Below are positions 9,157 to 25,437 of a stretch of DNA of 64,000 nucleotides, piece after piece; the first letter of the stretch is position 1, and each line of letters begins with the position of its first letter. This stretch comes from Alphaproteobacteria bacterium (GTDB lineage: Bacteria; Pseudomonadota; Alphaproteobacteria; Micavibrionales; Micavibrionaceae). The notes beneath the pieces were generated by a model. The model saw only the letters and a program-made list of their open reading frames with translations. It was not told the DNA's origin and did not search any database. The position numbers and the translations under genes were made by a program. The stretch is taken from positions 1 to 64,000 of the forward strand of contig JAACPE010000001.1 of NCBI GenBank assembly GCA_009995595.1. Direction: 5' to 3'.

Positions 9157-9924
9157 ATGAGTGTAGAAAATGGATCGAAAATACAAAAGGTGCTGAAATC
9201 GTGGCCAGTGGGTACGGTGAGTACGAGTAAATGGTTCTCTGAACTTGGCGTGTCCTCGCAACTCTTGAGAAAATATACTCAATATAATTGGGTAAAGCCT
9301 CTGGGAAGCGGTGCCTATATCAAAGCTGATGACACCGTAAGCTGGACAGGCGGGCTATACGCGCTACAAGAACAGCTAAAAATCTCAATCCACGCCGGAG
9401 CCATGACAGCCCTTTCCATGCAGGGTATGGCGCATTACTTGCGGATGGGCGGCGAGAGAGTATTTTTGTTTGCGCCGCCAAAGACTAAATTACCCGCATG
9501 GTTTAAAAATCATGATTGGGGAACGGAAATAAATTTTACGGCCAGCTCAATATTACCGGAGAATGTTGGCTTGATAGAGTATGAAGAAAAGAACTACACC
9601 ATACAAATATCCGCGCCAGAGAGGGCATTTCTGGAATGCCTTTATCTTGCGCCGGAAAAGCTTGATCTTGTAGAGTGCTATCAAGTCATGGAGGGACTGA
9701 CCACTTTGCGCCCGAAGCTATTGCAATCGCTTTTAGAGCAATGCGGATCAATCAAAGTAACGCGCCTGTTTTTATATATGGCCACCAAGGCTGGACATGA
9801 TTGGTATAAACGCCTTGATCAATCAAAATTTGACCTTGGAAAAGGAAGTCGTACAATCACGCAAGGCGGGGTATATATACCGGAATTTCAAATCATCGTG
9901 CCTGAGGAGCTTGTAAAACTATGA
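9157..9924 (+). CDS. abiEi: AbiEi-family antitoxin
   Basis: 255 residues with the AbiEi layout. An N-terminal winged helix (residues about 1-75) binds DNA and represses the operon; the following domain (residues about 80-255) carries the family pattern of IHAGAMTALSMQGMAHY and APERAFLECL. It neutralises the nucleotidyltransferase toxin encoded next to it (type IV style pair). The stop overlaps the toxin start by 4 nt (ATGA), so the two are translationally coupled. Confidence 0.9.
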   Translation: MSVENGSKIQKVLKSWPVGTVSTSKWFSELGVSSQLLRKYTQYNWVKPLGSGAYIKADDTVSWTGGLYALQEQLKISIHAGAMTALSMQGMAHYLRMGGERVFLFAPPKTKLPAWFKNHDWGTEINFTASSILPENVGLIEYEEKNYTIQISAPERAFLECLYLAPEKLDLVECYQVMEGLTTLRPKLLQSLLEQCGSIKVTRLFLYMATKAGHDWYKRLDQSKFDLGKGSRTITQGGVYIPEFQIIVPEELVKL

Positions 9925-10844
9925 TAAATCCATCTTACCGCGCACAAGTCGATCTTTTGTTACAGGTCATACCGCATGTAGCCAAGGAGGAATGCTTTAC
10001 GCTCAAAGGCGGCACGGCGATCAATATGTTTATCTGGGATATGCCGCGTCTTTCGGTTGATATTGATTTAACTTATCTGCCTTTTGATGATCGAGATACG
10101 GCAATGAGCAATATCGCCGCCGCGCTTGACCGGATCAAAGAGCGGATTGAAAAGGCCATCCCTAATTGTACCGTAAGGCTAGTACCGCAGAGCGACGGAC
10201 AGGAAACAAAGATCACCTGCCAAACCCAAAACGCACAAATCAAGATTGAGGTTAATACGATCATGCGCGGGGCTGTTTTTGCGCCAAAGAGTATGGACAT
10301 CGCCGATGCCGTTGAAGATGAATTTGGCCGTTTTGTTTCCATGAATATCGTGCATGAAGCCGAACTATTCGGCGGTAAAATCTGTGCGGCCTTAGACCGC
10401 CAGCATCCACGTGATTTGTTCGATGTATCGTGCCTGTTCGAAACTGGCGGAATTACGGACGACATTATGCAGGGCTTCATAATTAGCCTATTGAGCAGCC
10501 CGCGCCCAATCCATGAAATGATACGCCCGAATTTTCTGGATCAACAAAGAGCGTTTGAAACGCAGTTCGCGGGCATGAGCGAAACACCGTTTTCTTACCA
10601 AGATTTTGAAGCGACACGGGAACGCTTGGTCAAAGAAATCCATGCAAAGTTCACAGCCACTGACCGCACTTTTCTTCTCAGCTTCAAAAATGCCCAGCCG
10701 GACTGGTCACTTTTCCCGCATGAGAAAATAAAAGACCTGCCCGCCGTGAAGTGGAAACTTGCTAATATAGAAAAACTCAAAGCAAAAAATCCTGAGAAAC
10801 ATGCGGAGCAGTTAAAGGCTCTTGAAGGACGATTGAAAGGATAG
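9921..10844 (+). CDS. abiEii: AbiEii-family nucleotidyltransferase toxin
   Basis: 307 residues. The nucleotidyltransferase signature is intact: LKGGTAIN (about 27-34) and the metal-binding SVDIDLTYL (about 44-52), then a conserved KICAALDRQHPRDLFDV block. Family members use nucleotides, usually to block tRNA function, and stop growth during phage infection. It is coupled to the antitoxin upstream. The next gene starts 8 nt after its stop, so the operon may extend into the HEPN-like gene. Confidence 0.92.
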   Translation: MINPSYRAQVDLLLQVIPHVAKEECFTLKGGTAINMFIWDMPRLSVDIDLTYLPFDDRDTAMSNIAAALDRIKERIEKAIPNCTVRLVPQSDGQETKITCQTQNAQIKIEVNTIMRGAVFAPKSMDIADAVEDEFGRFVSMNIVHEAELFGGKICAALDRQHPRDLFDVSCLFETGGITDDIMQGFIISLLSSPRPIHEMIRPNFLDQQRAFETQFAGMSETPFSYQDFEATRERLVKEIHAKFTATDRTFLLSFKNAQPDWSLFPHEKIKDLPAVKWKLANIEKLKAKNPEKHAEQLKALEGRLKG

Positions 10845-13465: not shown

Positions 13466-14722
13466 ATGACCAATCTAACTGATAATGTTTTTTATAATCT
13501 CAGAATTCAAACGGGGATGACTGCCGAACAGGTGGCCGAACTTCTTGGTGTTTCAGCGCGTACTGTCAGGCGCTGGGATTCGGGAGAGGTGGAGCCCAAA
13601 AAGATGGTTTTGAGTATGCTGAAAGGGGTGGCGAAAAAAGCACGGTTAAATGCTGCATACGCTTCCAGCAATAAATCAGCTTTTTCCTTTATTGACCTTT
13701 TCGCTGGTATTGGCGGAATTCGGATCCCTTTTCAAGAATTGGGCGGTGAATGTGTTTTTACATCTGAATGGGATAAATTTGCCCAGAAAACTTATGCGAT
13801 GAATTTTGGCGAGATACCTGAGGGCGACATAACGAAAATTCCTGCATCTTCGATCCCAGCTCATGATGTTTTGTTGGCGGGTTTTCCATGTCAGGCATTT
13901 TCCCAAGCTGGTTTGAAGCAGGGCTTTCTTGATACGCGCGGGACAATGTTCTTTGAAATACAAAGAATACTGAGCCATCATCGTCCTAAGGCTTTTGTTC
14001 TTGAAAATGTTAAACAGCTACGTGGTCATGATAAAGGTCGTACTTTAAAAACCATACTGGATATATTGCGTGGAGAAAACGAGCACGATATTCCTGAAAA
14101 TATCCCTATGTCGGAAGAAGCGAAAAGAAGCCTCGGTGATGAGCTCAATTATTGGGTGGATTTTCGCGTTCTCAGGGCTGCTGATTATGGTGTGCCCCAA
14201 AATAGAGAAAGAGTTTTCATAGTGGGAATCAATAAGGATTATTATCCTGATGCAGACTTTAATTGTATTTTCAAATGGCCGGAAGCGACGGTTAGAGAAA
14301 CTAAACTCGGAGATATTTTGCAAAAAAATTCCGATGTAGACACCAAATACACTCTTTCTGACAGGCTTTGGGAAGGCCATCAGCGTAGAAAACGTGAACA
14401 TAAGTTAAAAGGTAACGGATTTGGTTATTCTTTATTTAATCGTGAAAGCCCTTACGCGAATACGATTAGTGCGCGATATTATAAGGATGGTAGTGAAATA
14501 CTTATAGACCAATCGGAGCTAGGTAAGAATCCACGTAAATTAACGCCTCGTGAATGTTCTAGAATACAGGGGTTTCCTGAAGATTTTATTATAGATTGCG
14601 TATCTGATGTACAGGCTTATAAGCAGTTTGGTAATTCCGTAGCTGTGCCTGTTGTCAGGGAGGTGGCAAAGGCATTGCTTGATGCTATGGTGTGTGCGTC
14701 CAGAGTACGAAAGGCAGCCTGA
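13466..14722 (+). CDS. dcm: DNA (cytosine-5) methyltransferase, Dcm/EcoRII type, with N-terminal HTH
   Basis: 418 residues. An XRE-like HTH fills about 12-55 (TAEQVAELLGVSARTVRRW). The methylase motifs follow in order: I FIDLFAGIGG (about 74-83), IV GFPCQAFSQAG (catalytic Cys about 141), VI ENVKQLRG (about 178-186), VIII QNRERVFIVG (about 244-253), and X QFGNSVAVP (about 388). It methylates cytosine C5. The similarity to Dcm and the adjacent Vsr suggest a CCWGG-like target. AGGAGG precedes the start. It is the first gene of a co-directional cluster and its HTH may control that cluster. Confidence 0.95.
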   Translation: MTNLTDNVFYNLRIQTGMTAEQVAELLGVSARTVRRWDSGEVEPKKMVLSMLKGVAKKARLNAAYASSNKSAFSFIDLFAGIGGIRIPFQELGGECVFTSEWDKFAQKTYAMNFGEIPEGDITKIPASSIPAHDVLLAGFPCQAFSQAGLKQGFLDTRGTMFFEIQRILSHHRPKAFVLENVKQLRGHDKGRTLKTILDILRGENEHDIPENIPMSEEAKRSLGDELNYWVDFRVLRAADYGVPQNRERVFIVGINKDYYPDADFNCIFKWPEATVRETKLGDILQKNSDVDTKYTLSDRLWEGHQRRKREHKLKGNGFGYSLFNRESPYANTISARYYKDGSEILIDQSELGKNPRKLTPRECSRIQGFPEDFIIDCVSDVQAYKQFGNSVAVPVVREVAKALLDAMVCASRVRKAA

Positions 14723-15207
14723 TGGCTGATGTTGTTTCCAAATCCAAGAGAAGTCAGATGATGTCTGGCATCAAGGGCAAGAACACAAAACCTGAAATTA
14801 GTCTTAGAAAGGAATTGTTTTCACGTGGGTTTCGTTATCGAACTCATGGCAGAATTTTGCCCGGAAAACCTGATCTTGTTTTTAAAAAGTACAACGCTCT
14901 TGTTTTTGTTAACGGTTGTTTTTGGCATGGTCACGAAAATTGTAAATTGTTCCGGATGCCAAAATCCCGCATTGATTTTTGGGAGGAAAAGATAGGCGTG
15001 AATATAGATAGGGATAAGCGCAATATTATAGAGCTCTTGGATTTTGGGTGGCGGGTGCTGATTGTTTGGGAGTGCTCTATTAAAGGTAAAAGCGTTAGAC
15101 TTCCTGCTACTGCAGATCTTGTTCAAGAGTGGTTATTATCGGATCGGAAAGGTCTTTTTGAGATCCGTCTTGATAATGATACCCAATTACCCATTTTTAA
15201 AAGTTAA
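14722..15207 (+). CDS. vsr: very short patch repair endonuclease Vsr
   Basis: 161 residues from the ATG that overlaps the dcm stop (TGATG). It resembles E. coli Vsr over its length: RSQMMSGIKGKNTKPE, LPGKPDLVF (catalytic Asp), FVNGCFWHGH (active-site and zinc His/Cys), FWEEKIGVNIDRD and GWRVLIVWEC (zinc Cys). Vsr nicks 5' of T in T:G mismatches made when 5-methylcytosine deaminates. Here it may only repair, or it may act as a nuclease of the larger defence cluster. Confidence 0.95.
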   Translation: MADVVSKSKRSQMMSGIKGKNTKPEISLRKELFSRGFRYRTHGRILPGKPDLVFKKYNALVFVNGCFWHGHENCKLFRMPKSRIDFWEEKIGVNIDRDKRNIIELLDFGWRVLIVWECSIKGKSVRLPATADLVQEWLLSDRKGLFEIRLDNDTQLPIFKS

Positions 15208-15318
15208 AAATATATTCATCTGGTTTATTGTCACCTAAGTCGGAAAATCGTTTAAGTTTTGCGTATTCAAATTATTTCGGCTAAGGTTTTGTATTATTTA
15301 ATAGATTTGGAGATTTAA

Positions 15319-17199
15319 GTGCGTAGTGCAGTGCTTGATATAGAAGGGGGGCGGATTTTTATAGAAAGTGATAGGAAATCCTTTCCGCAGATAGAAGAGA
15401 TTTTTGCATTTAAAAACAAAAGCGATGACATTTGTGGTGTTACGGCTGGAGATGTAAAGACAACTGCACGTGTTTCCGAGCTAAAATTCCGGAAGAGACC
15501 TTTTTCTGCCAAATACAGGCTTGAGAAAGGTACTATACTTCCGCTTCTGGAAGACACTGTTTTACATGAGAATGCAGTGACTACCTTTATCGAATACGGC
15601 TATGCCGTTTTGGATAATAAGGTCTATACATGTCTGCCGGAGGAAAGAGATTTGTTCGTTATGGTTAAGGAGGCGGATAATCCTAAAAGTCTTTTGAGGG
15701 CTATAGCTGCTTTAAAAGAGAAGGGGCGTCTTGAAAGTGAATATGATCAGGTAATCCGAGAACTCATAACCACACCTATTTCGGATTTAGAGACTGCAAA
15801 CACCAATGTATTTCCCAATAAACTCTATAACTATCAGAGAGAGGGCGTACAATGGCTTTTATATTGTTATCTTAATAATATCGGGACCATACTTGCCGAC
15901 GACATGGGACTTGGAAAGACAGCGCAAATAATAGGCTTGATAGCTGAATGTAATGAACGTGATCTCCTTAAAAATACCCTGATAGTTGTCCCTAGCACCC
16001 TGATAGAGAACTGGAAAAGAGAATTCGAATTTTTCTATCCCTCGATAAAGCCTTATGTACATTACGGTACTCTTCGAACAGGTCTTGCTTCGGAGTTGGA
16101 AAAATATAAGGTTGTTATAACCCCTTACTCGATAATGACTAATGATATTGAGATGATGGTTGAGCTGGACCTTGATCTTCTGGTATTCGATGAAGCCAGT
16201 TTGTTGAAAAACCCGCAATCAGAGCGAACCCAATCAGCAAAGCGCTTGCAATCAAGCTCTACTATTGCAATTACAGGCACGCCTTTGGAAAATTCGCTGA
16301 AGGACCTCTGGTCTCTTACTGATTTGGTTTTCTCCGGATATCTGGGGCCTCTCGAAGAATTCTCTACTCGATATATTGGTAGGGATATACACGCAACTCT
16401 GGCGGGGAATCTGGAGAGCCTGGAAGCGCACGTTAGGCAGATCATGATACGTAGGTTGAAAGTAGATTATCTTGATGAGCTCCCGGAGCGCATTGATATT
16501 CCGCAACCAATAGAGATGAATGATGCAGAAAGAGAATACTATCAAAAGGTTATCGACACGATAAGAAATAACCGGAACGATAAAGGTGCTGTGTTTCAAG
16601 AAATAATAAGGCTACAGCAATATACGGCCCATCCGGAGCTCCTTTCCGAGAGTAAGTGTTACGAGCTAGCACACCTTAAGGGTGTTAGCGCTAAGTTCTG
16701 CCGCTTATTCGAGCTTCTTGACCAGATTGCCGAAAGAAACGAGAAAGTCATTATATTCGCAAATCATCACGAGATGCTTGATATTTTGAAAGGTGCAATT
16801 GAGAGAGAATACGGAAAAAAAGTATTCCAGATTGACGGGAGATTGCCAAATGAAGAAAGGCAGCCCGAAATTGATACATTTTCAGCGCAGGAAGGGTTCA
16901 GTGTCCTTGTGCTGAACCCAAAGACTGCCGGAATGGGCCTCAACATAACGGCGGCGAATCATGTTATTCATTACAGCAGGCAATGGAATCCGGCCTTGGA
17001 AGAGCAGGCGACAGCCAGGGCCTACCGCAATGGGCAAAAAAAGGCCGTAAATGTTTATTACCTCTTCTATTGTAACACGATCGAAGATGTTATTAATGAA
17101 CGTCTGGGTTTAAAGAGGCAGCTTTCAGAGCGCGTGGTAGTGGTTGAAGACGATAAAACTGAAGATATTGATATAATGTTAGATTACATAGGAGAATAA
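15319..17199 (+). CDS. SNF2-family DNA-dependent ATPase
   Basis: 626 residues, GTG start with GGAG upstream. An unrecognised N-terminal region (about 1-170) precedes a full SNF2 core: Q-like YNYQREGVQWL, motif I DDMGLGKTAQ (about 193-202), motif II DEAS (about 291-294, where most have DEAH), motif III ITGTPLENSLKDLWSL (about 318-333), and motif VI QATARAYRNGQ (about 562-572). These proteins move along double-stranded DNA and remodel protein-DNA complexes. It lies 111 nt after vsr and 3 nt before the GHKL ATPase gene. It is probably the motor of the restriction complex. Confidence 0.93.
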   Translation: MRSAVLDIEGGRIFIESDRKSFPQIEEIFAFKNKSDDICGVTAGDVKTTARVSELKFRKRPFSAKYRLEKGTILPLLEDTVLHENAVTTFIEYGYAVLDNKVYTCLPEERDLFVMVKEADNPKSLLRAIAALKEKGRLESEYDQVIRELITTPISDLETANTNVFPNKLYNYQREGVQWLLYCYLNNIGTILADDMGLGKTAQIIGLIAECNERDLLKNTLIVVPSTLIENWKREFEFFYPSIKPYVHYGTLRTGLASELEKYKVVITPYSIMTNDIEMMVELDLDLLVFDEASLLKNPQSERTQSAKRLQSSSTIAITGTPLENSLKDLWSLTDLVFSGYLGPLEEFSTRYIGRDIHATLAGNLESLEAHVRQIMIRRLKVDYLDELPERIDIPQPIEMNDAEREYYQKVIDTIRNNRNDKGAVFQEIIRLQQYTAHPELLSESKCYELAHLKGVSAKFCRLFELLDQIAERNEKVIIFANHHEMLDILKGAIEREYGKKVFQIDGRLPNEERQPEIDTFSAQEGFSVLVLNPKTAGMGLNITAANHVIHYSRQWNPALEEQATARAYRNGQKKAVNVYYLFYCNTIEDVINERLGLKRQLSERVVVVEDDKTEDIDIMLDYIGE

Positions 17200-17202
17200 T
17201 TT

Positions 17203-18849
17203 ATGGTAGCGAATGTTGCTAACTTGGAACCCGCAACGGTTCATGATTTGGACGAGAGCGACTTTATACCTTCCCCGGCTCGATTGGTAGACGGTTTGAG
17301 AGATACAGGTTACTCATATGAAGCATCATTTGCGGATATTGTAGACAACTCGATAGCCGCTAATGCTAATAAAGTAGATATTAAAATATATCGCATGGCT
17401 GATGGAGAACTTCGTGTCGTAATTGCCGATAATGGCGATGGAATGGATCTTACAACCCTGCTTAATGCAATGAGATACGGCTCTCCAAAGCGCCATGACC
17501 CTAAGTCTTTGGGTAAATTCGGCATGGGGTTGAAAACCGCATCGACAGCATTTTGTCGCAAACTTACAGTATTCTCTATAAAAAATGGTGAGTGCAACGG
17601 TAGGGCTTGGGATATAGAGGAAATCAAGCGTCTGGACAGGTGGGTGCTTCTCACTCCTGATCATGACGAATATGAAGAGGATATTGATTTTATCGGAGAA
17701 CTTTCTGACAAGAAGACGGGCACAGTTGTTATCTGGGAAGATATCGACCGTCTGATTAGCCATTCTGAAAAAGATAGTAAGGATAAACTGCTTGCTGTGC
17801 TGGTTGCCGAGATCAGAGATCATCTAAGTAGTGTTTTCGGAAAATTTCTTGATAAGGATAATACCGACGCTGCAAATGTTGAAATTTTTGTAAATGATGA
17901 ACCACTGGAAGGTTGGGATCCTACTGGAAAATGGATGAATTCAGGTGATGGTAAGAGGGTTACTATACAAAAGAAGGTTATAGATTATGAAGAAACGCTT
18001 AATGAAGAAGTCTCGAAGTTATCTTTCGAGCTTAATGGATATATATTGCCCAACAAGTCAGATATGACAGATGAAGAACTTAATAAGATCCGGTATGGTA
18101 ACGATAATCAAGGGTTCTACATATATCGTGAAAACAGGCTAATTTATGGAGGTGGATGGCCGCATCGCTTGTTTACGAAAGAGCCGCACCTGAATCTTTT
18201 AAGAGTCGAATTGAATTTTGATCATGAACTTGATGACTTTTTCCAGGTTGATATTCGGAAAACCCGAATAATATTTCCGCAAGCCTTGCGCCAGAAGATC
18301 AAGAAGCATCTTACACCGTTTAGAAATGAAGCCAATAAAAGATACAGGCAGGGGCGAAACACTCCTAAGGCTGAGGGGGAAGAGAATTATAATCAACATA
18401 AGTCATCCGATAATGCAATCAGGAAGCACTTGTCTGATAATGCCCAAGCTACACTGACAATTACCGATCATGAAAAAGGTGAAGTGAATGTTAAAAATCA
18501 ATTTGGTAATATTACTTTAACGCATGCCCATCTTGTTGAGGGTACGGATATTTCAGTTCAGGTATGTGAATCCCTAACGGATGGATGCCTGTGGGAATAC
18601 GGGATCAATGAGGAAGGTGATGTTTGTGTACTTTTAAATGAGTCGCATGAATTCTATAAAAAATTCTATACCCCAAACTTCAATAATCCAGTGCTTATTC
18701 AATCTATGGATAGTGTTTTCTGGTCTCTAGCTAACTGTGAGATTGGTACAATTTCGGAGAAGTCGCGCCGTAATATTGAGGAAATGCGTTTTATGGTATC
18801 AAAAAACCTGAGAATATTGTCTGACGAGTTGCCGGATGTTGAAGATTGA
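17203..18849 (+). CDS. GHKL ATPase, MORC/MutL-like
   Basis: 548 residues with a Bergerat-fold ATPase at the N-terminus: DIVDNSIAANA (N-box, about 45-55), ADNGDGM (about 75-81) and GKFGMGLKTAS (about 104-114). An S5-like domain follows to about residue 380. The last 70 residues contain LNESHEFYKKFY and a helical tail that match the C-terminus of the gene product at 19624. GHKL ATPases of this type act as DNA clamps. Iyer, Abhiman and Aravind described such proteins in restriction clusters as relatives of MORC. AGGAGA precedes the ATG. Confidence 0.88.
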   Translation: MVANVANLEPATVHDLDESDFIPSPARLVDGLRDTGYSYEASFADIVDNSIAANANKVDIKIYRMADGELRVVIADNGDGMDLTTLLNAMRYGSPKRHDPKSLGKFGMGLKTASTAFCRKLTVFSIKNGECNGRAWDIEEIKRLDRWVLLTPDHDEYEEDIDFIGELSDKKTGTVVIWEDIDRLISHSEKDSKDKLLAVLVAEIRDHLSSVFGKFLDKDNTDAANVEIFVNDEPLEGWDPTGKWMNSGDGKRVTIQKKVIDYEETLNEEVSKLSFELNGYILPNKSDMTDEELNKIRYGNDNQGFYIYRENRLIYGGGWPHRLFTKEPHLNLLRVELNFDHELDDFFQVDIRKTRIIFPQALRQKIKKHLTPFRNEANKRYRQGRNTPKAEGEENYNQHKSSDNAIRKHLSDNAQATLTITDHEKGEVNVKNQFGNITLTHAHLVEGTDISVQVCESLTDGCLWEYGINEEGDVCVLLNESHEFYKKFYTPNFNNPVLIQSMDSVFWSLANCEIGTISEKSRRNIEEMRFMVSKNLRILSDELPDVED

Positions 18850-19624
18850 TACTGACGCTGTCTTGTTGTTTCTAAACGAACAGTTCACTGATGAGTGTTC
18901 GGTAGAAGAGCTCGATGATACGCAGACCCGCTTCAAACTTCTGGTCCGGTACGCTGATTTTTTTGTGATAGTCATTGCAAGTGAAGCAAGGATTTGTCTG
19001 AATTTTCACGTAAATGAATTCGATGAAGATTTGCGCAATGTGATGCTATTACAATTGCGGCATATTAAAGATACTATTGATAGTGATCTTAAGCCTTACA
19101 AGCTCATGCTTTGGTCAAATGAGAACAAGACATATCCGAATATACCAGATATTGAAAAACTAAAACAAAACCAGGATTTTATTGCAGAGATCTGTTCGGG
19201 GCCCTGTGATATTATGACGGAAGAAAAAGCCCTTCCTGTATTGCTGGATATACTTCATAAGGGCTTAGCTTGGGTATTCTCTATTAATGGCAATATCGGT
19301 GAGGAAGAGGGAGAGCGGCATCAATATTTTTCTTCTAGAATTGAAAGGTCCAGCAAAAATAGAGCGTTGTGTATTTCTATGTACGGCTACAAATGCCAAG
19401 TGTGTGAAAACACTATGGAAGAGAAATACGGTGAACTTGCTAGTGAATTTATTCATGTTCATCATCTCGAAAGTATTGCAAAAAACGGTAAGAAATGGAT
19501 AGACCCGCTTAAAGACCTTATAACGGTATGTCCAAATTGCCACAGTATGTTGCATAGGCGCGAGCCACCACTTTCACCGGAAGAATTACAAGAGATACTT
19601 CGCAATAACAGGAGCGAATTATAA
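18836..19624 (+). CDS. HNH endonuclease, McrA-like, with unknown N-terminal domain
   Basis: 262 residues; it overlaps the GHKL gene by 14 nt. The N-terminal 170 residues are unrecognised and acidic. The C-terminus is an HNH domain: CQVC (about 187-190), VHHLE (about 207-211), and VCPNCHSMLHRR (about 231-242), with two CxxC pairs that bind zinc. This HNH type is typical of restriction systems. It is the most probable DNA-cutting subunit; the N-terminal domain may recognise the GHKL/SNF2 partners. Confidence 0.9.
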   Translation: MLKIDTDAVLLFLNEQFTDECSVEELDDTQTRFKLLVRYADFFVIVIASEARICLNFHVNEFDEDLRNVMLLQLRHIKDTIDSDLKPYKLMLWSNENKTYPNIPDIEKLKQNQDFIAEICSGPCDIMTEEKALPVLLDILHKGLAWVFSINGNIGEEEGERHQYFSSRIERSSKNRALCISMYGYKCQVCENTMEEKYGELASEFIHVHHLESIAKNGKKWIDPLKDLITVCPNCHSMLHRREPPLSPEELQEILRNNRSEL

Positions 19625-20568
19625 TGGGTTATGTATTCGATATTTCAGGCTTTAAGGCTTTTATTCTGCAAGAGTCAGGTCGTTTCAGGATTGATGGCCT
19701 GAGTATTTGGTATAACTCGATCCCTATACCAGTTGATCTCTTCGAAATATTTTTTGACTCTTGGAGGGACAATTTCAAGATTTACTTGGATCATTTGATG
19801 GTCGCTCTGATGCTTGAGCAATTACTTCAGGAGCACGAAGAGCTCGAGCTTTCAGTACAGGACTTTCCTAATGCGGAGGCAATCAAGAGCAACAGGCAGG
19901 CACTTTACAAAATTCTTTCTGAATGTAAGAGCGCTAGATCTGAGTTCACTTCTCTAGCACAAGAACTTGCAGCAATATTGAGTGTCGAGAACTATCAGTT
20001 TGATATCAATGATTTGCTTGAAGCAGCCAGCATTGAAGGTAAAAAATACAAACGTATGTTCCTACCCAAAGAATTCAGAAAACTCATTAAAATTAGAATC
20101 GCGGGCTCTCTTGATAGCGTGGCGACTTCAAATGGGGATATGTTTGGGAACATAATTGCGGATCGGTTAAAGCTCTATCGCAGCGGTTTTAGTGATGCCC
20201 TAGCTGGGCTTTTTAACAAGCTTCTAGAATACAAGATTGATAAATGCTCGGGATTTATAGCAGTTACAGGCTCTTCAATATTGCGCTTTGGCGATGAAGG
20301 AAGCAGCAATAAACTTATACAGGTCATTAAAGAAAAAACGGTCGATGGAAGTTTATGGGAGCCATTATTTGATGGTGAAATCAAGATACGTTTAAATCCT
20401 AGCCATCCACATTATGAAGTCATCACAAAATGCAGCAATCCGGAAGCCGTTATAAAAATTCTGGGTGTTATGGCGCGGCTGGAAATGAATTGTTCCAATA
20501 GCAATGAACTGAAAATAATCGAAAATGTTCGCGCGCGGATATCCAGAGAGCTTTGGATGTCTGATTAA
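19624..20568 (+). CDS. unknown cluster protein, C-terminus shared with the GHKL ATPase
   Basis: 314 residues; its start overlaps the HNH stop (TAATG), so it belongs to the same operon. No known domain. A helical region (about 60-140) precedes a mixed domain. The C-terminal part has LNPSHPHYEVI, a two-residue NP, then MARLEMN and a closing helix. The order and spacing are like LNESHEFYKKF, NP, VFWSLANCE and the closing helix at the end of the GHKL protein. I infer a shared interaction or DNA-binding module. No transmembrane segment. Confidence 0.7.
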   Translation: MGYVFDISGFKAFILQESGRFRIDGLSIWYNSIPIPVDLFEIFFDSWRDNFKIYLDHLMVALMLEQLLQEHEELELSVQDFPNAEAIKSNRQALYKILSECKSARSEFTSLAQELAAILSVENYQFDINDLLEAASIEGKKYKRMFLPKEFRKLIKIRIAGSLDSVATSNGDMFGNIIADRLKLYRSGFSDALAGLFNKLLEYKIDKCSGFIAVTGSSILRFGDEGSSNKLIQVIKEKTVDGSLWEPLFDGEIKIRLNPSHPHYEVITKCSNPEAVIKILGVMARLEMNCSNSNELKIIENVRARISRELWMSD

Positions 20569-20753: not shown

Positions 20754-21740
20754 ATGAAGATTACGATGTCGTTCTATAGGGTATATTTTCACCCGCCACG
20801 TGACACTGCGGAACGCCAATATATTGACCAGCTTACCGGATCAGAGCCAAGCGCAGCTATTACACTGCAGAACTTTTTCGCAAGCCTGCCTGTATTTGAA
20901 GAGCGGGGAAACTTAAGTACCGGAGAACGCATGGGGGTTATTTATCACGATCAAGTCAAGCAAGTCACAACTGAGGAGCAGATTTCAGGAATTTTGCAGG
21001 TTGGCGAGGATGGATTCGCAAGTGAAATTCATGACGGTCAATCAGGTATGCATTTATTATCAAGAACTCCTGAACATATTGAATTTATGCCCTTTTATTA
21101 TTTGATAGATGCTTCTGCGGGGAAAAAAGACCTGATAGTAGGCGTGCAACATTTTGGTTCGCAAGGCATATCCTCAAAATTTCTTCCCTTAATGATAGCG
21201 TATTTGAGGGCGTCATATCCAGATTATACCGTGAAGCATGACACTATTCACCTAGGCCCTATATTTTTTGGTAATATAATTGCAAATGGTGAAGTCAGAG
21301 AAATTGAAGCAATATCATTTAAACAAATTACTGATAGAGCCTCAACAAACGAAGAGAAAATAAAAGTTAGTAGAGCTTATGGTGCTGTTAAACGCGGTGG
21401 TTTTTTGCCTAGGCCGTTGACTGATCTAATCAGAACACGTAGTGCAGCTATAATGTCTGAGGCTGATGGTCAGGAGCTCAGTCAAGATTTAGTAACGGAA
21501 ATTAAAGAGCTTTTATCAATTAATATACCTGAAGACGAGACTATAGCAGAATTAAACGCTACAATCGTTTGTAATGGTTCACCTCGAAAAATAGATCTGG
21601 GCAATATATATAAATTTGCAACGCGCTACGATATGAACCGTGTCGAAAGGGGAGAAGATCGACATCCTGAGTTTGCAAGCATTGATGAAGAAAGTAAGCG
21701 CATCCTGGAAGATGATATAAGGCCACTTATTAGGGGGTAA
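20754..21740 (+). CDS. uncharacterised soluble protein of a two-gene module
   Basis: 328 residues, no membrane segments and no recognised domain. AAGGAG lies 7 nt before ATG at 20754. The N-terminal half looks beta-rich (ITMSFYRVYFHP) and the C-terminal half helical with many Asp and Glu. It follows the GHKL cluster after a 185-nt gap, so it probably has its own promoter. The downstream membrane gene starts 5 nt after its stop, so the two are co-translated. A sensor paired with a membrane effector is a plausible inference; Kiwa-like pairs were considered but not supported. Confidence 0.65.
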   Translation: MKITMSFYRVYFHPPRDTAERQYIDQLTGSEPSAAITLQNFFASLPVFEERGNLSTGERMGVIYHDQVKQVTTEEQISGILQVGEDGFASEIHDGQSGMHLLSRTPEHIEFMPFYYLIDASAGKKDLIVGVQHFGSQGISSKFLPLMIAYLRASYPDYTVKHDTIHLGPIFFGNIIANGEVREIEAISFKQITDRASTNEEKIKVSRAYGAVKRGGFLPRPLTDLIRTRSAAIMSEADGQELSQDLVTEIKELLSINIPEDETIAELNATIVCNGSPRKIDLGNIYKFATRYDMNRVERGEDRHPEFASIDEESKRILEDDIRPLIRG

Positions 21741-21745
21741 ATCTT

Positions 21746-22270
21746 ATGAAGATATTTGAAAAAGTAGATGTAACCGAGATTATTGGCAGACACTTTAAAA
21801 CCCTGTTTGATATTGGCAGCCAAAAGCCTTGCTGGTCAGAAATTATAGTATTTTATATATTGCCAATTTTAGTTGTCCCGTATGTGGTTTACACTTTTGA
21901 TCATTCTCTTACAGAGAAGCTGGGCAACTTATTTTTCCAGGCATTTGCAATAACTGGCGGGTTTCTTATTAACGCTCTTGTGATGCTTACAGATCGCCGA
22001 CAGCATTATGATGACTCCAAGAAATTTTCCGAACGTGTGACTTTAATTGAAGAGACCTATTCTAACACCGCTTTCGGAGTTCTTATCTGTTTTATGATTG
22101 TTTTGTTTGCAGGTATTGCTGTGGGTACAAATAGCGATGATATTTGTATTACAAATATCTGCAAAATTTGGAGTGTTATTATTACCTCTTTAGTTTATTA
22201 TCTAACAATAATTTTCGCCCATACTTTAGGAATGGTAATTAAGAGGTTAGATAAAATTTTTAGGAGTTAA
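21746..22270 (+). CDS. four-helix membrane protein of a two-gene module
   Basis: 174 residues. Four hydrophobic segments are visible: about 33-50 (FYILPILVVPYVVYTF), 66-84, 112-128 and 142-162, with short loops and a charged segment (DRRQHYDDSKKF) between the second and third. It has no enzyme motif. AGGGGG lies before the ATG at 21746. Small four-helix proteins are common membrane effectors in abortive defence modules, hence the inference. Its partner is the soluble protein encoded just upstream. Confidence 0.65.
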   Translation: MKIFEKVDVTEIIGRHFKTLFDIGSQKPCWSEIIVFYILPILVVPYVVYTFDHSLTEKLGNLFFQAFAITGGFLINALVMLTDRRQHYDDSKKFSERVTLIEETYSNTAFGVLICFMIVLFAGIAVGTNSDDICITNICKIWSVIITSLVYYLTIIFAHTLGMVIKRLDKIFRS

Positions 22271-22322: not shown

Positions 22323-23696
22323 TTAAGCGGCATCAATTAGTGTTACGCTTTTAGAACCTCTTGTTAAGGCTACGTATAGGTCTTTGTTTGTTCCCCAGTT
22401 GCTGCCACGTATAATAACAGCATGATCAAATTCTAATCCTTTTATTAGTAATGTGCTGCCAATACATCTGAAAGAACTGTTTCGGCTTTGATGCTTTCTT
22501 TTTCCAATTTCATCAGCGTAAAGGTTTGAAAGGCTTTGAGTAGTAGTAATGTGCTCTTCTAGAACGCATTTAAGAGCGCTTACAGATTCTTTTAATTTGC
22601 ATGATATCCCTGCGTCTTCTATATACGACAACAAATCAAGTATTAGAGCTGGTGTAATACCAGATTGCCTAGTTTCGCATAAAGATTTCCTGTTTGTGTG
22701 ACGTGGGTTTTGGGTTGTCCCATTTATTAATTTTTCTATAAAGTTCTTCTCTCCACTCAAACCGCTATAGGATTTTTTTAGAAAATTAGAGATGGCATTC
22801 TTCTTAGTATTTTCTGTGCCTTCTACAAAATTTTGTATGAAATCTTTTAAAACGCTTAGTTCATTGGATTCTAGAACTTTATATTTTTGATTTACAAGGG
22901 CCGTAACAGCTCCGGTCGGTAAGGTGTGACTCTTGGGCCCAATTATGCATATCCTGCCTTGTTTGCTGTGCGTTAGGCCAATGAGTTGACGGCTCAACTC
23001 ATTGTAACCCAAACGCATTCTACTGATTGGAGCGCCATTAAAATCGGGTTCTCTATTTTTAAAAAACGCTGGTCTTGTTCCTAATAACCATCTTCCAAGA
23101 GGCTCATTTCCGGCTTTAATCCATCTATGTGGTGTGTCTAGTGCGCCAAGGTTATTTGTAAATTCACCTTCAACATCTGACCATTCAATTAGGGTATCAT
23201 CACGAAAACCAAATATTGCTTGCAAAGGGTCGCCAAGAATTCTGCAAGGTAAAATCATTTTTAGTTGCGTAATTAATTGATGCATTGGAATCGTACAATC
23301 CTGATATTCATCAACGATAATTCCGGCATAAGTATTTAGAACTACTTGTTGCACAAAGTTTTTTTGCAAAAGATTGGACATTGCAGAATAGACGTTATTC
23401 CATTCTGCAATGTCAGTGGAGCCTGTGTAATTTGAATTATCGGGGTATCGTTTTACCCACCCCCATGCCCAACCAGCAATAGTATCAATTTGGTATTTTG
23501 ATGTTGGGATTTGATGCGCTTTGAATCTCTGTCTCAATGCATCTACGCCAGCGTGTGTATGAGTTAAAATAAGCTGTCTATGTTCGCAGTAAGACCCTAC
23601 TGCCTTAACAATTGCTTCTGTCTTGCCACAACCAGCGGGTGCCTCAACAAACCCGCTGCTGGATAGGGCTATTGCCTGATAGACTTCATCCATCAT
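22323..23696 (-). CDS. gajB: Gabija protein GajB, UvrD-like helicase
   Basis: 457 residues, close to the length of known GajB. Walker A is APAGCGKTEA (19-28), motif Ia-like THTHAGVDALRQR (45-57), motif II DEYQD (129-133), motif III GDPLQAIFGF, and the final motifs LLIKGLEFDHAVI and LYVALTRGSK. GajB hydrolyses nucleotides and is stimulated by DNA ends; with GajA it stops phage DNA replication. It overlaps the gajA end by 11 nt on the same strand. Confidence 0.9.
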   Translation of the reverse strand: MMDEVYQAIALSSSGFVEAPAGCGKTEAIVKAVGSYCEHRQLILTHTHAGVDALRQRFKAHQIPTSKYQIDTIAGWAWGWVKRYPDNSNYTGSTDIAEWNNVYSAMSNLLQKNFVQQVVLNTYAGIIVDEYQDCTIPMHQLITQLKMILPCRILGDPLQAIFGFRDDTLIEWSDVEGEFTNNLGALDTPHRWIKAGNEPLGRWLLGTRPAFFKNREPDFNGAPISRMRLGYNELSRQLIGLTHSKQGRICIIGPKSHTLPTGAVTALVNQKYKVLESNELSVLKDFIQNFVEGTENTKKNAISNFLKKSYSGLSGEKNFIEKLINGTTQNPRHTNRKSLCETRQSGITPALILDLLSYIEDAGISCKLKESVSALKCVLEEHITTTQSLSNLYADEIGKRKHQSRNSSFRCIGSTLLIKGLEFDHAVIIRGSNWGTNKDLYVALTRGSKSVTLIDAA

Positions 23697-25437
23697 TCTG
23701 TATCCAGTCCCAAAGTGATTTCAGCTCAGTTCTTGTGTAGCTGTTAGCGGGTAATAATGGTAATAAGAATGCAAAAGTGCCCCATGCGCAGTTAGGTCTT
23801 TTTATCCATCCTTTATCTTTATTGTTTACTTTATGCTTATGGGCAGTTTTACCTAGTGCGGCTCTAATAGCAGGGCTTTCTTCCCATTCTTCTGGATTAT
23901 TAGTTAAGCGGTTTTCCGTGGGTAAGCGATCATTAACAGCGCTAACTAAGTTTTCTAATTCCAGAAAATCTCTTAGTTCAATAATTCGATTGAGGAATGC
24001 CGGAATATGATCCCATGAAATGTCTTTAAAAATCTGATCTTCCGTGGAGTTTCCCTTTTCCCACTGAAAAATTGAAACTCCATTTTTAATTAGTTCCTGC
24101 TTATCTGTTTCCTGGAAATCATCCAGGGCGTCATTGTCACAAAAAACAGCGGTTTTATATCCGAGTGAGGCTAGTTTTAAAGCAGCATCTTTTACATTGT
24201 TAATGCCACCTGCATTAAAATAGCAGGTGGCCAAACTCCAAACGGGGGCGTCTTCTTCGTTAAAAGAAAATTCATCCAACGCTCTCAAACATCCAATTTC
24301 TGTTGGGCCTTCGCATACAACTATTTTACTTCCCAAAAAGGCTTCTGCATTACTTCTTACTGCCCCCTGTATGTCTGGCACTGTATTGAGGCTTTCTAGA
24401 TATACGATTCCATCTCTGTCTCTTTTGCAAACAATCAATTCGTTTGTGGCAACATTCAATTCTCTTAATACAACAGGCGAATGTGTTGTTGTAAATATTT
24501 GTTGCTTTGCATTTTTAAGTTTGTAAATCAGACCACGAATTCTATGAGGCTCAAGGCCCAACTCAATTTCATCGGCTAAGGCTATATTATTTCCGTTGTG
24601 CAACTTCATTTGCATAGCAGATGAAATTAGTTTTTTAGAGCCGCTGCCCTTATTACGTATTGGCACAACCCCTTCATGTAAAGATATTGCCCCAGCCTTA
24701 ATAGACTGCTTCTGCACATCTATTTGAGGAGATAGGCTGTCTAATCTAACACCCATGTTTTGAGATTCTAGCTGCACGGAGGACGCAACAGATTGGCATT
24801 CTACAATTCCCTGATGCTCGGATATGTCACTTTGCCTTATCTCTCTTGTTAGCTCTGATAGCAAACCACTTAACCTTGTCTGGCTGTCTTCACTAAGGCG
24901 CGTTAATACCGTATTCCGTCCCCACGTAAAATTTGAATCTGATGAAATATCTATTCTGTTTGCGCCTAATATTGCTCTGTCAGAGGCGTATATTGGTCTT
25001 CTATCCTGTTCCTGACTTTCATCTCTTCCCTGTACCAATGACCATTTAGGTTCCAGTGTTTTATCAATTCTTAGAGAGATAGAAATGGCTACAGGTCCAT
25101 TTTCCTCTGGCTCTGGTAAAGAACCATGTTTATTAAGACCACATTTGCTTTGACCAAATTTATGTTCTCTAAAAAATGATTGGATTTCTGATGAGCCTTC
25201 ATCCCAATCTGTGAGGGTTACCTGTATAATTATTTCTTCATCAATATTTTGATTATAAAAATCGGAATCATCACAATACAGTGATATACGGGGAGAAAGA
25301 GCGTAATCTAGGGCAGTTAGTATTGTTGATTTGCAGGTGTCACCCGGCCCAATAATGCAGTTAAAGTCACTCTGCACGTACCACTGCAAATGCTTAATTC
25401 CCCTGAAATTTCTGATCTCAATATGCCGTATTTTCAT
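23686..25437 (-). CDS. gajA: Gabija protein GajA, OLD-type ATPase with TOPRIM nuclease
   Basis: 583 residues. The ATPase half starts MKIRHIEIRNFRGIKHLQW and has Walker A GPGDTCKST (30-38), where the usual NGxGKS form is altered to DTCKS. Walker B and D-loop lie in ALADEIELGLEPHR (about 284-297), then THSPVV. The TOPRIM domain has VVCEGPTE (about 369-376) and CDNDALDD (about 429-436). GajA nicks DNA when nucleotides fall. It is first in the operon; it diverges from the gene at 25524 across 86 bp. Confidence 0.9.
   Translation of the reverse strand: MKIRHIEIRNFRGIKHLQWYVQSDFNCIIGPGDTCKSTILTALDYALSPRISLYCDDSDFYNQNIDEEIIIQVTLTDWDEGSSEIQSFFREHKFGQSKCGLNKHGSLPEPEENGPVAISISLRIDKTLEPKWSLVQGRDESQEQDRRPIYASDRAILGANRIDISSDSNFTWGRNTVLTRLSEDSQTRLSGLLSELTREIRQSDISEHQGIVECQSVASSVQLESQNMGVRLDSLSPQIDVQKQSIKAGAISLHEGVVPIRNKGSGSKKLISSAMQMKLHNGNNIALADEIELGLEPHRIRGLIYKLKNAKQQIFTTTHSPVVLRELNVATNELIVCKRDRDGIVYLESLNTVPDIQGAVRSNAEAFLGSKIVVCEGPTEIGCLRALDEFSFNEEDAPVWSLATCYFNAGGINNVKDAALKLASLGYKTAVFCDNDALDDFQETDKQELIKNGVSIFQWEKGNSTEDQIFKDISWDHIPAFLNRIIELRDFLELENLVSAVNDRLPTENRLTNNPEEWEESPAIRAALGKTAHKHKVNNKDKGWIKRPNCAWGTFAFLLPLLPANSYTRTELKSLWDWIQNDG

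Follow-up and report, generated by a model that had tools for sequence, protein, structure and literature searches.

A C-terminal module common to the MORC-like GHKL ATPase and a protein of no known family in an SNF2-type MORC restriction-modification cluster

The MORC-like GHKL ATPase and the last protein of a predicted restriction-modification cluster, here called X, end in C-terminal modules that are almost certainly homologous. The cluster was found in the window, the whole stretch of 64,000 nucleotides that was analysed, and the homologous region comprises the last ~75 to 85 residues of both proteins. The module offers a starting point for understanding how prokaryotic MORC ATPases end and how restriction systems of this kind are assembled.

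Gene cluster and related systems

The cluster extends from 13466 to 20568, with all genes on one strand, and contains the following features:

13466 to 14722, plus strand: C5-cytosine DNA methyltransferase (Dcm-type) with an N-terminal HTH (PF00145, E=2.2e-98)
14692 to 15207, plus strand: Vsr-type nicking endonuclease (PF03852, E=4.3e-29)
15319 to 17199, plus strand: SWI2/SNF2 helicase (PF00176, E=8e-55; PF00271, E=2.2e-20)
17203 to 18849, plus strand: MORC-like GHKL ATPase (PF13589, E=3.6e-29)
18550 to 18837, plus strand: C-terminal module of the ATPase, residues ~450 to 545 (profile match)
18836 to 19624, plus strand: HNH endonuclease (PF01844, E=1.5e-7)
19624 to 20568, plus strand: X, 314 aa, no known family (relatives in loci L002, L003 and L009)
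19624 to 20253, plus strand: N-terminal domain of X, residues 1 to 210 (AF2, alignment, profile search)
20332 to 20553, plus strand: C-terminal module of X, homolog of the ATPase module (profile searches)

The last 14 bases of the ATPase gene are shared with the HNH gene, and the stop codon of the HNH gene overlaps the start codon of X by one base (TAATG). The ATPase shows intact N-box, DNGDGM, and GKFGMGLKT motifs, and its Foldseek matches include MORC2/MORC3, with E values down to 5.6e-16. The HNH endonuclease contains CxxC zinc sites as well as the motifs HxHH and CPNCH. With an intact MORC-like ATPase, an adjoining SWI2/SNF2 helicase, and HNH, cytosine methyltransferase, and Vsr genes, the cluster is an SNF2-type MORC restriction-modification system, in which restriction itself is predicted. 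SWI2/SNF2-type MORC/paraMORC restriction-modification operons are described in the main text of Iyer, Abhiman and Aravind 2008 (PMC2292703), and according to this text the SNF2 helicase, the MORC-like GHKL ATPase, HNH, the cytosine methyltransferase, and Vsr are common to those operons and the cluster. VP1/RAV (EcoRII-N-like) DNA-binding proteins are reported there for some of the operons; no mention of X or of the common C-terminal module was found in the parts consulted of the main text and legends.

The ATPase also falls into the GHKL family of MzaB from the MZA anti-phage system (PADLOC, E=1.7e-41; NCBIfam, E=2.2e-54). Unlike in MZA, however, the NCBIfam MzaB score of 184.6 lies far under the cutoff of 850, and the match covers solely the N-terminal ~380 residues. 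None of the ORFs in the window matched the MZA partners Z1, AIPR, or PD-(D/E)XK at E<=1e-4. An AIPR-like gene stands beside several HNH-type SNF2-MORC loci (L007, L022, L034-L036), as in Mza-type systems.

Homology of the C-terminal modules

A sequence-only reading of the window had noticed by eye a series of short strings in both C termini and proposed a common module. The strings are present in the ATPase (LNESHEFY at 478, NNPVL at 494, SLANCE at 508, closing helix at ~522 to 540) and in X (LNPSHPHY at 257, SNPEA at 271, MARLEMN at 283, closing helix at ~293 to 313), their order agrees between the two proteins, and the module is borne out at the level of the sequence, in profile comparisons, and in the predicted secondary structure. 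The position of the strings holds, but the true start of the module lies ~20 residues earlier, at the sequence T/V-D-G-x-LW-E (ATPase 459, X 240), which is the best-conserved part of the module and was missing from the strings listed. The NP pair, which had been counted among the shared features, is a coincidence and does not belong to the module, as the relatives show no conservation there (NS and NV in ATPases, GI and GC in X proteins).

BLASTP of the ATPase against X gives E=0.001 over 86 residues. The local-alignment score of the two C termini is 69, compared to 26.5 +/- 4.8 for shuffled sequences, with none of 5000 shuffles scoring as high; the ATPase/X pairs of two other loci reach 81 and 75 (0 of 2000 shuffles as high). 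Profile comparison of the C termini with hhalign results in 98.5% and E=2.5e-15. Among 2,119 ORFs, an HMM built from ATPase modules only matches the X proteins (E=6e-7 to 3e-9); reciprocally, the HMM of X recovers the ATPases. Six-frame searches of the cluster's own genome with ATPase-only profiles match the ATPase and X and no other location (E=3e-6), and a broader ATPase-only profile again hits solely these two (E=6.5e-6). The Kaistella genome, searched with the X profile, likewise contains just X and the ATPase. When the N-x-x-H-P columns are masked, the ATPase and X still align in hhalign with E=3.6e-11. It is scarcely credible that the likeness arose by chance or by independent convergence on a short motif: the similarity spans ~76 columns, survives this masking, is reciprocal, and is specific across whole genomes. 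What such a reading can draw on is the Hsp90 part of the case described below, which hangs on one motif.

The C-terminal family motifs are present in both proteins, and the columns common across the families are G-x-L-(W/F), h-x-h-N-x-x-H-P, A-x-x-E, and R-x-x-x-S-x-x-L. In the ATPase of the window, E replaces the P after the H of N-x-x-H-P, and X is devoid of some residues conserved in the ATPases (Y/K/Y after HP). The AlphaFold2 model of the ATPase (mean pLDDT 80) places strands at 464 to 468 and 474 to 479 and helices at 483 to 489, 496 to 516, and 522 to 540 of the module. The model of X, built from three sequences (mean pLDDT 62), places strands at 245 to 249 and 253 to 257 and helices at 264 to 269, 273 to 289, and 293 to 313. 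The predicted order is thus β-β-α-α-α in both modules.

Distribution of the module

Several groups of MORC-type ATPases usually end in this module. In an iterated search of 5,389 ORFs, which were drawn from the fetched loci as well as the window and form a set chosen by the presence of the ATPase, it was found at the C terminus of ~50 MORC-type GHKL ORFs, linked to SNF2 helicases, to Rad25 helicases, or to neither; in most Z1/Mza-linked ATPases of this set the module is not recognizable. The only carriers in the set without a GHKL domain at E<=1e-3 are the four X proteins, one of them split over two frames, together with the tail of the Vibrio ATPase, which is frameshifted. Because the ORFs had been selected by ATPase presence, whole genomes were searched as well, 398 with the narrow profile and 347 of the same class with the broader one, and yielded GHKL ORFs and X and nothing else. 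Within the genomes covered, the module is therefore confined to X and the MORC-type ATPases. Searches of Pfam and the PDB gave no credible match for the module. A match of profile A3 to 7rdr was rejected as a helical-repeat artifact, since no stretch passes alone and the match disappears with the broader profile.

Loci containing X

X is known from four loci: the window, Kaistella pullorum (L002), a Vibrio vulnificus plasmid (L003), and an IMG/VR contig (L009). No further X was found in 398 and 346 sampled genomes, while a scan of genome contigs gave one other genome. The idea that X belongs to phages or is widespread on plasmids was rejected, as the phage search remained without a match and only one plasmid and one viral contig carry X. 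All four loci contain the SNF2 and ATPase genes, whereas HNH is present in two and replaced by McrB-like and LlaJI genes in the other two. In the latter, L009 and L003, X lies directly behind the ATPase with overlapping genes, HNH is missing, and the McrB/LlaJI genes come next. This indicates that X goes with the SNF2 helicase and the ATPase rather than with one particular nuclease. The arrangement of an McrB-like AAA gene and a LlaJI (McrC-like) gene straight after X (L009:6629-10781, L003:9607-13930) combines two restriction machineries. On the Vibrio vulnificus plasmid (L003:8022-10657), the McrB gene is fragmented, and the reading frames of the ATPase and X are each interrupted inside the C-terminal module.

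Compared to other SNF2-MORC loci, X occupies the place of the EcoRII-N protein. X occurs without EcoRII-N in four loci and a small EcoRII-N/B3 protein occurs without X in 15, and no locus contains both. The methyltransferase of the window groups in one clade with those of the other X loci, and the X loci form one clade in the helicase and ATPase trees as well. The mutual exclusion of X and EcoRII-N thus reflects a single historical switch and not repeated replacement.

Origin and N-terminal domain of X

A tree built from 45 modules and 97 columns unites the four X modules in one clade (97/92), which nests within the clade of the SNF2-system ATPase modules (96/92) and outside all other MORC groups. 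In the best tree, X joins the ATPases from its own loci, a grouping that is poorly supported (26/97). The nesting suggests that X took its module from an ATPase of this kind, and a derivation from the ATPase of the same kind of system is accordingly considered probable; the C-terminal domain of X was most likely acquired once, as judged from the module tree. The proposal that X arose from an ATPase fragment thus holds for its C-terminal quarter but not for the whole protein: residues 1 to 210 show no similarity to the ATPase or to anything in the databases searched, and a fragment origin throughout was rejected.

X has no significant match in Pfam, NCBIfam, PADLOC, or the PDB, and a profile search with residues 1 to 210 found no relative outside X. 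A fold search of X against viral structures returned nothing. The N-terminal domain contains a conserved block at ~170 to 192 (NGDMFGNIIAD...YRSGFSDA) and is predicted to be all-helical, at the low confidence of the X model, in contrast to EcoRII-N, which is a β-rich DNA-binding domain. A diverged EcoRII-N/B3 protein was rejected as the identity of X, with an hhalign value of 0.12% and no Pfam EcoRII-N or B3 domain in X.

Resemblance to Hsp90

The module weakly resembles the C-terminal dimerization domain of Hsp90, a resemblance that depends on one short motif. As in Hsp90/HtpG, it is the last domain of a GHKL ATPase, and a strand, N-x-x-H-P, and subsequent helices lie in the aligned place. 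Against a profile of Hsp90 C-terminal domains from 60 bacterial sequences, the module reaches an hhalign score of 29.9, compared to at most 16.4 in 160 decoys. The X modules alone score 33.8 (at most 21.2 in 47 decoys) and the non-SNF2 MORC modules 31.4, while the SNF2-type ATPase modules are marginal with 20.7 against a decoy maximum of 20.5. With six motif columns masked, the match falls to decoy level, and no similarity beyond N-x-x-H-P is left. HMMER searches against Pfam or the PDB do not detect the Hsp90 C-terminal domain. In Foldseek searches with the low-confidence X model, the HtpG/GRP94 C-terminal domain recurs (1sf8, 2ioq, and 2o1u at E 2.2 to 5.1), with nothing significant in the PDB. 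Owing to the loss of signal on masking, homology to Hsp90 is not accepted as an established fact and serves as a lead for dimerization only, which it weakly favors. The comparison bears on the question of whether the sharing between MORC and Hsp90 goes beyond the ATPase and S5 domains.

Proposed role of X

The sequence-only reading had suggested that the ATPase and X dimerize through the module or bind the same partner, and both options are plausible. The best explanation, with doubt and belief in balance, is that X is an extra subunit of the SNF2-MORC system that partners the ATPase via the module and stands in for the EcoRII-N DNA reader. Its two parts differ in weight: the module has an even chance of being a pairing domain, and the assignment of X as the stand-in for the reader is somewhat more tentative. 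The module would act as a dimerization domain like that at the C terminus of Hsp90, through which X would form a dimer either with the ATPase or with a second copy of X. Its N-terminal domain would take over the task of the EcoRII-N/B3 protein and bring the complex to unmethylated target DNA, where the ATPase, the helicase, and the nuclease (HNH here, McrBC/LlaJI-like elsewhere) would cut or block invading DNA. This explanation is favored by the reciprocal and specific homology of the two modules, by the association of X with the SNF2 and ATPase genes, and by the mutual exclusion with EcoRII-N. Against it count the small number of X proteins, four with one of them frameshifted, an N terminus that is unlike EcoRII-N and modeled at low confidence, the dependence of the Hsp90 match on one motif, and the single switch between X and EcoRII-N, which does not amount to repeated evidence for a replacement. 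If the module is a pairing domain, an interaction between X and the ATPase is predicted, and specificity subunits should be exchangeable by moving the module.

Alternatively, both modules may attach to a common third protein, with the SNF2 helicase as the likeliest candidate, and X and the ATPase would then sit next to each other or compete. Apart from the methyltransferase and ATPase genes, the helicase gene is the only one that all X loci share with the EcoRII-N loci. A docking domain that had been copied would also retain the surface facing its partner, and X does keep the residues conserved across families. However, the module is not an SNF2-specific dock, since it is likewise found in MORC-type ATPases whose loci encode a Rad25-type helicase or show no recognized helicase gene in the fetched stretch. 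In addition, GHKL ATPases commonly dimerize via their C-terminal domains (PMC12733681, PMC5651269), the C-terminal end being the usual dimerization place, e.g., in MutL and Hsp90 (PMC12733681). A common third partner is accordingly rather unlikely.

The likelihood is lower still for a homodimer of X formed via the module, which would act on its own as a two-headed adaptor or as a two-headed protein for recognition. Homodimers are the common state of Hsp90 C-terminal domains, and the loss of the Y/K/Y residues in X may have shifted its choice of partner; the linkage to the ATPase and the gene overlap across the four X loci nevertheless point to a common complex. Very unlikely is a role of X as an inhibitor or timer that pairs with an ATPase protomer via the module and blocks ATPase homodimers until a signal arrives. 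A detached dimerization domain would be the classic design of a dominant-negative regulator, but the conserved N-terminal domain of 210 residues and the absence of X from EcoRII-N loci are more in keeping with a functional subunit than with a mere cap.

Returning to X as an ATPase partner that replaces the DNA reader, a wider generalization is possible, although it is rather doubtful. Prokaryotic MORC-type ATPases would end in an Hsp90-type dimerization domain, and one lineage would have duplicated this domain onto an unrelated protein, creating a new class of target readers that plug into the ATPase dimer and replace EcoRII-N/B3.

Neighboring genes

Two genes lie 3' of X at 20754 to 22270 (328 and 174 aa), after a gap of ~185 bases, and match nothing in Pfam or PADLOC. 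These genes, starting at 20754 and 21746, were rejected as further members of the cluster, as they have no relatives in other SNF2-MORC loci. A Gabija-like pair on the minus strand adjoins the cluster at 22323 to 25437, with a GajB-like gene (PADLOC, E=2.8e-121) and a GajA-like gene (E=2e-156), which places the cluster in a defense island. The ORF at 9921 to 10844 resembles, by eye, an AbiEii-type nucleotidyltransferase toxin.
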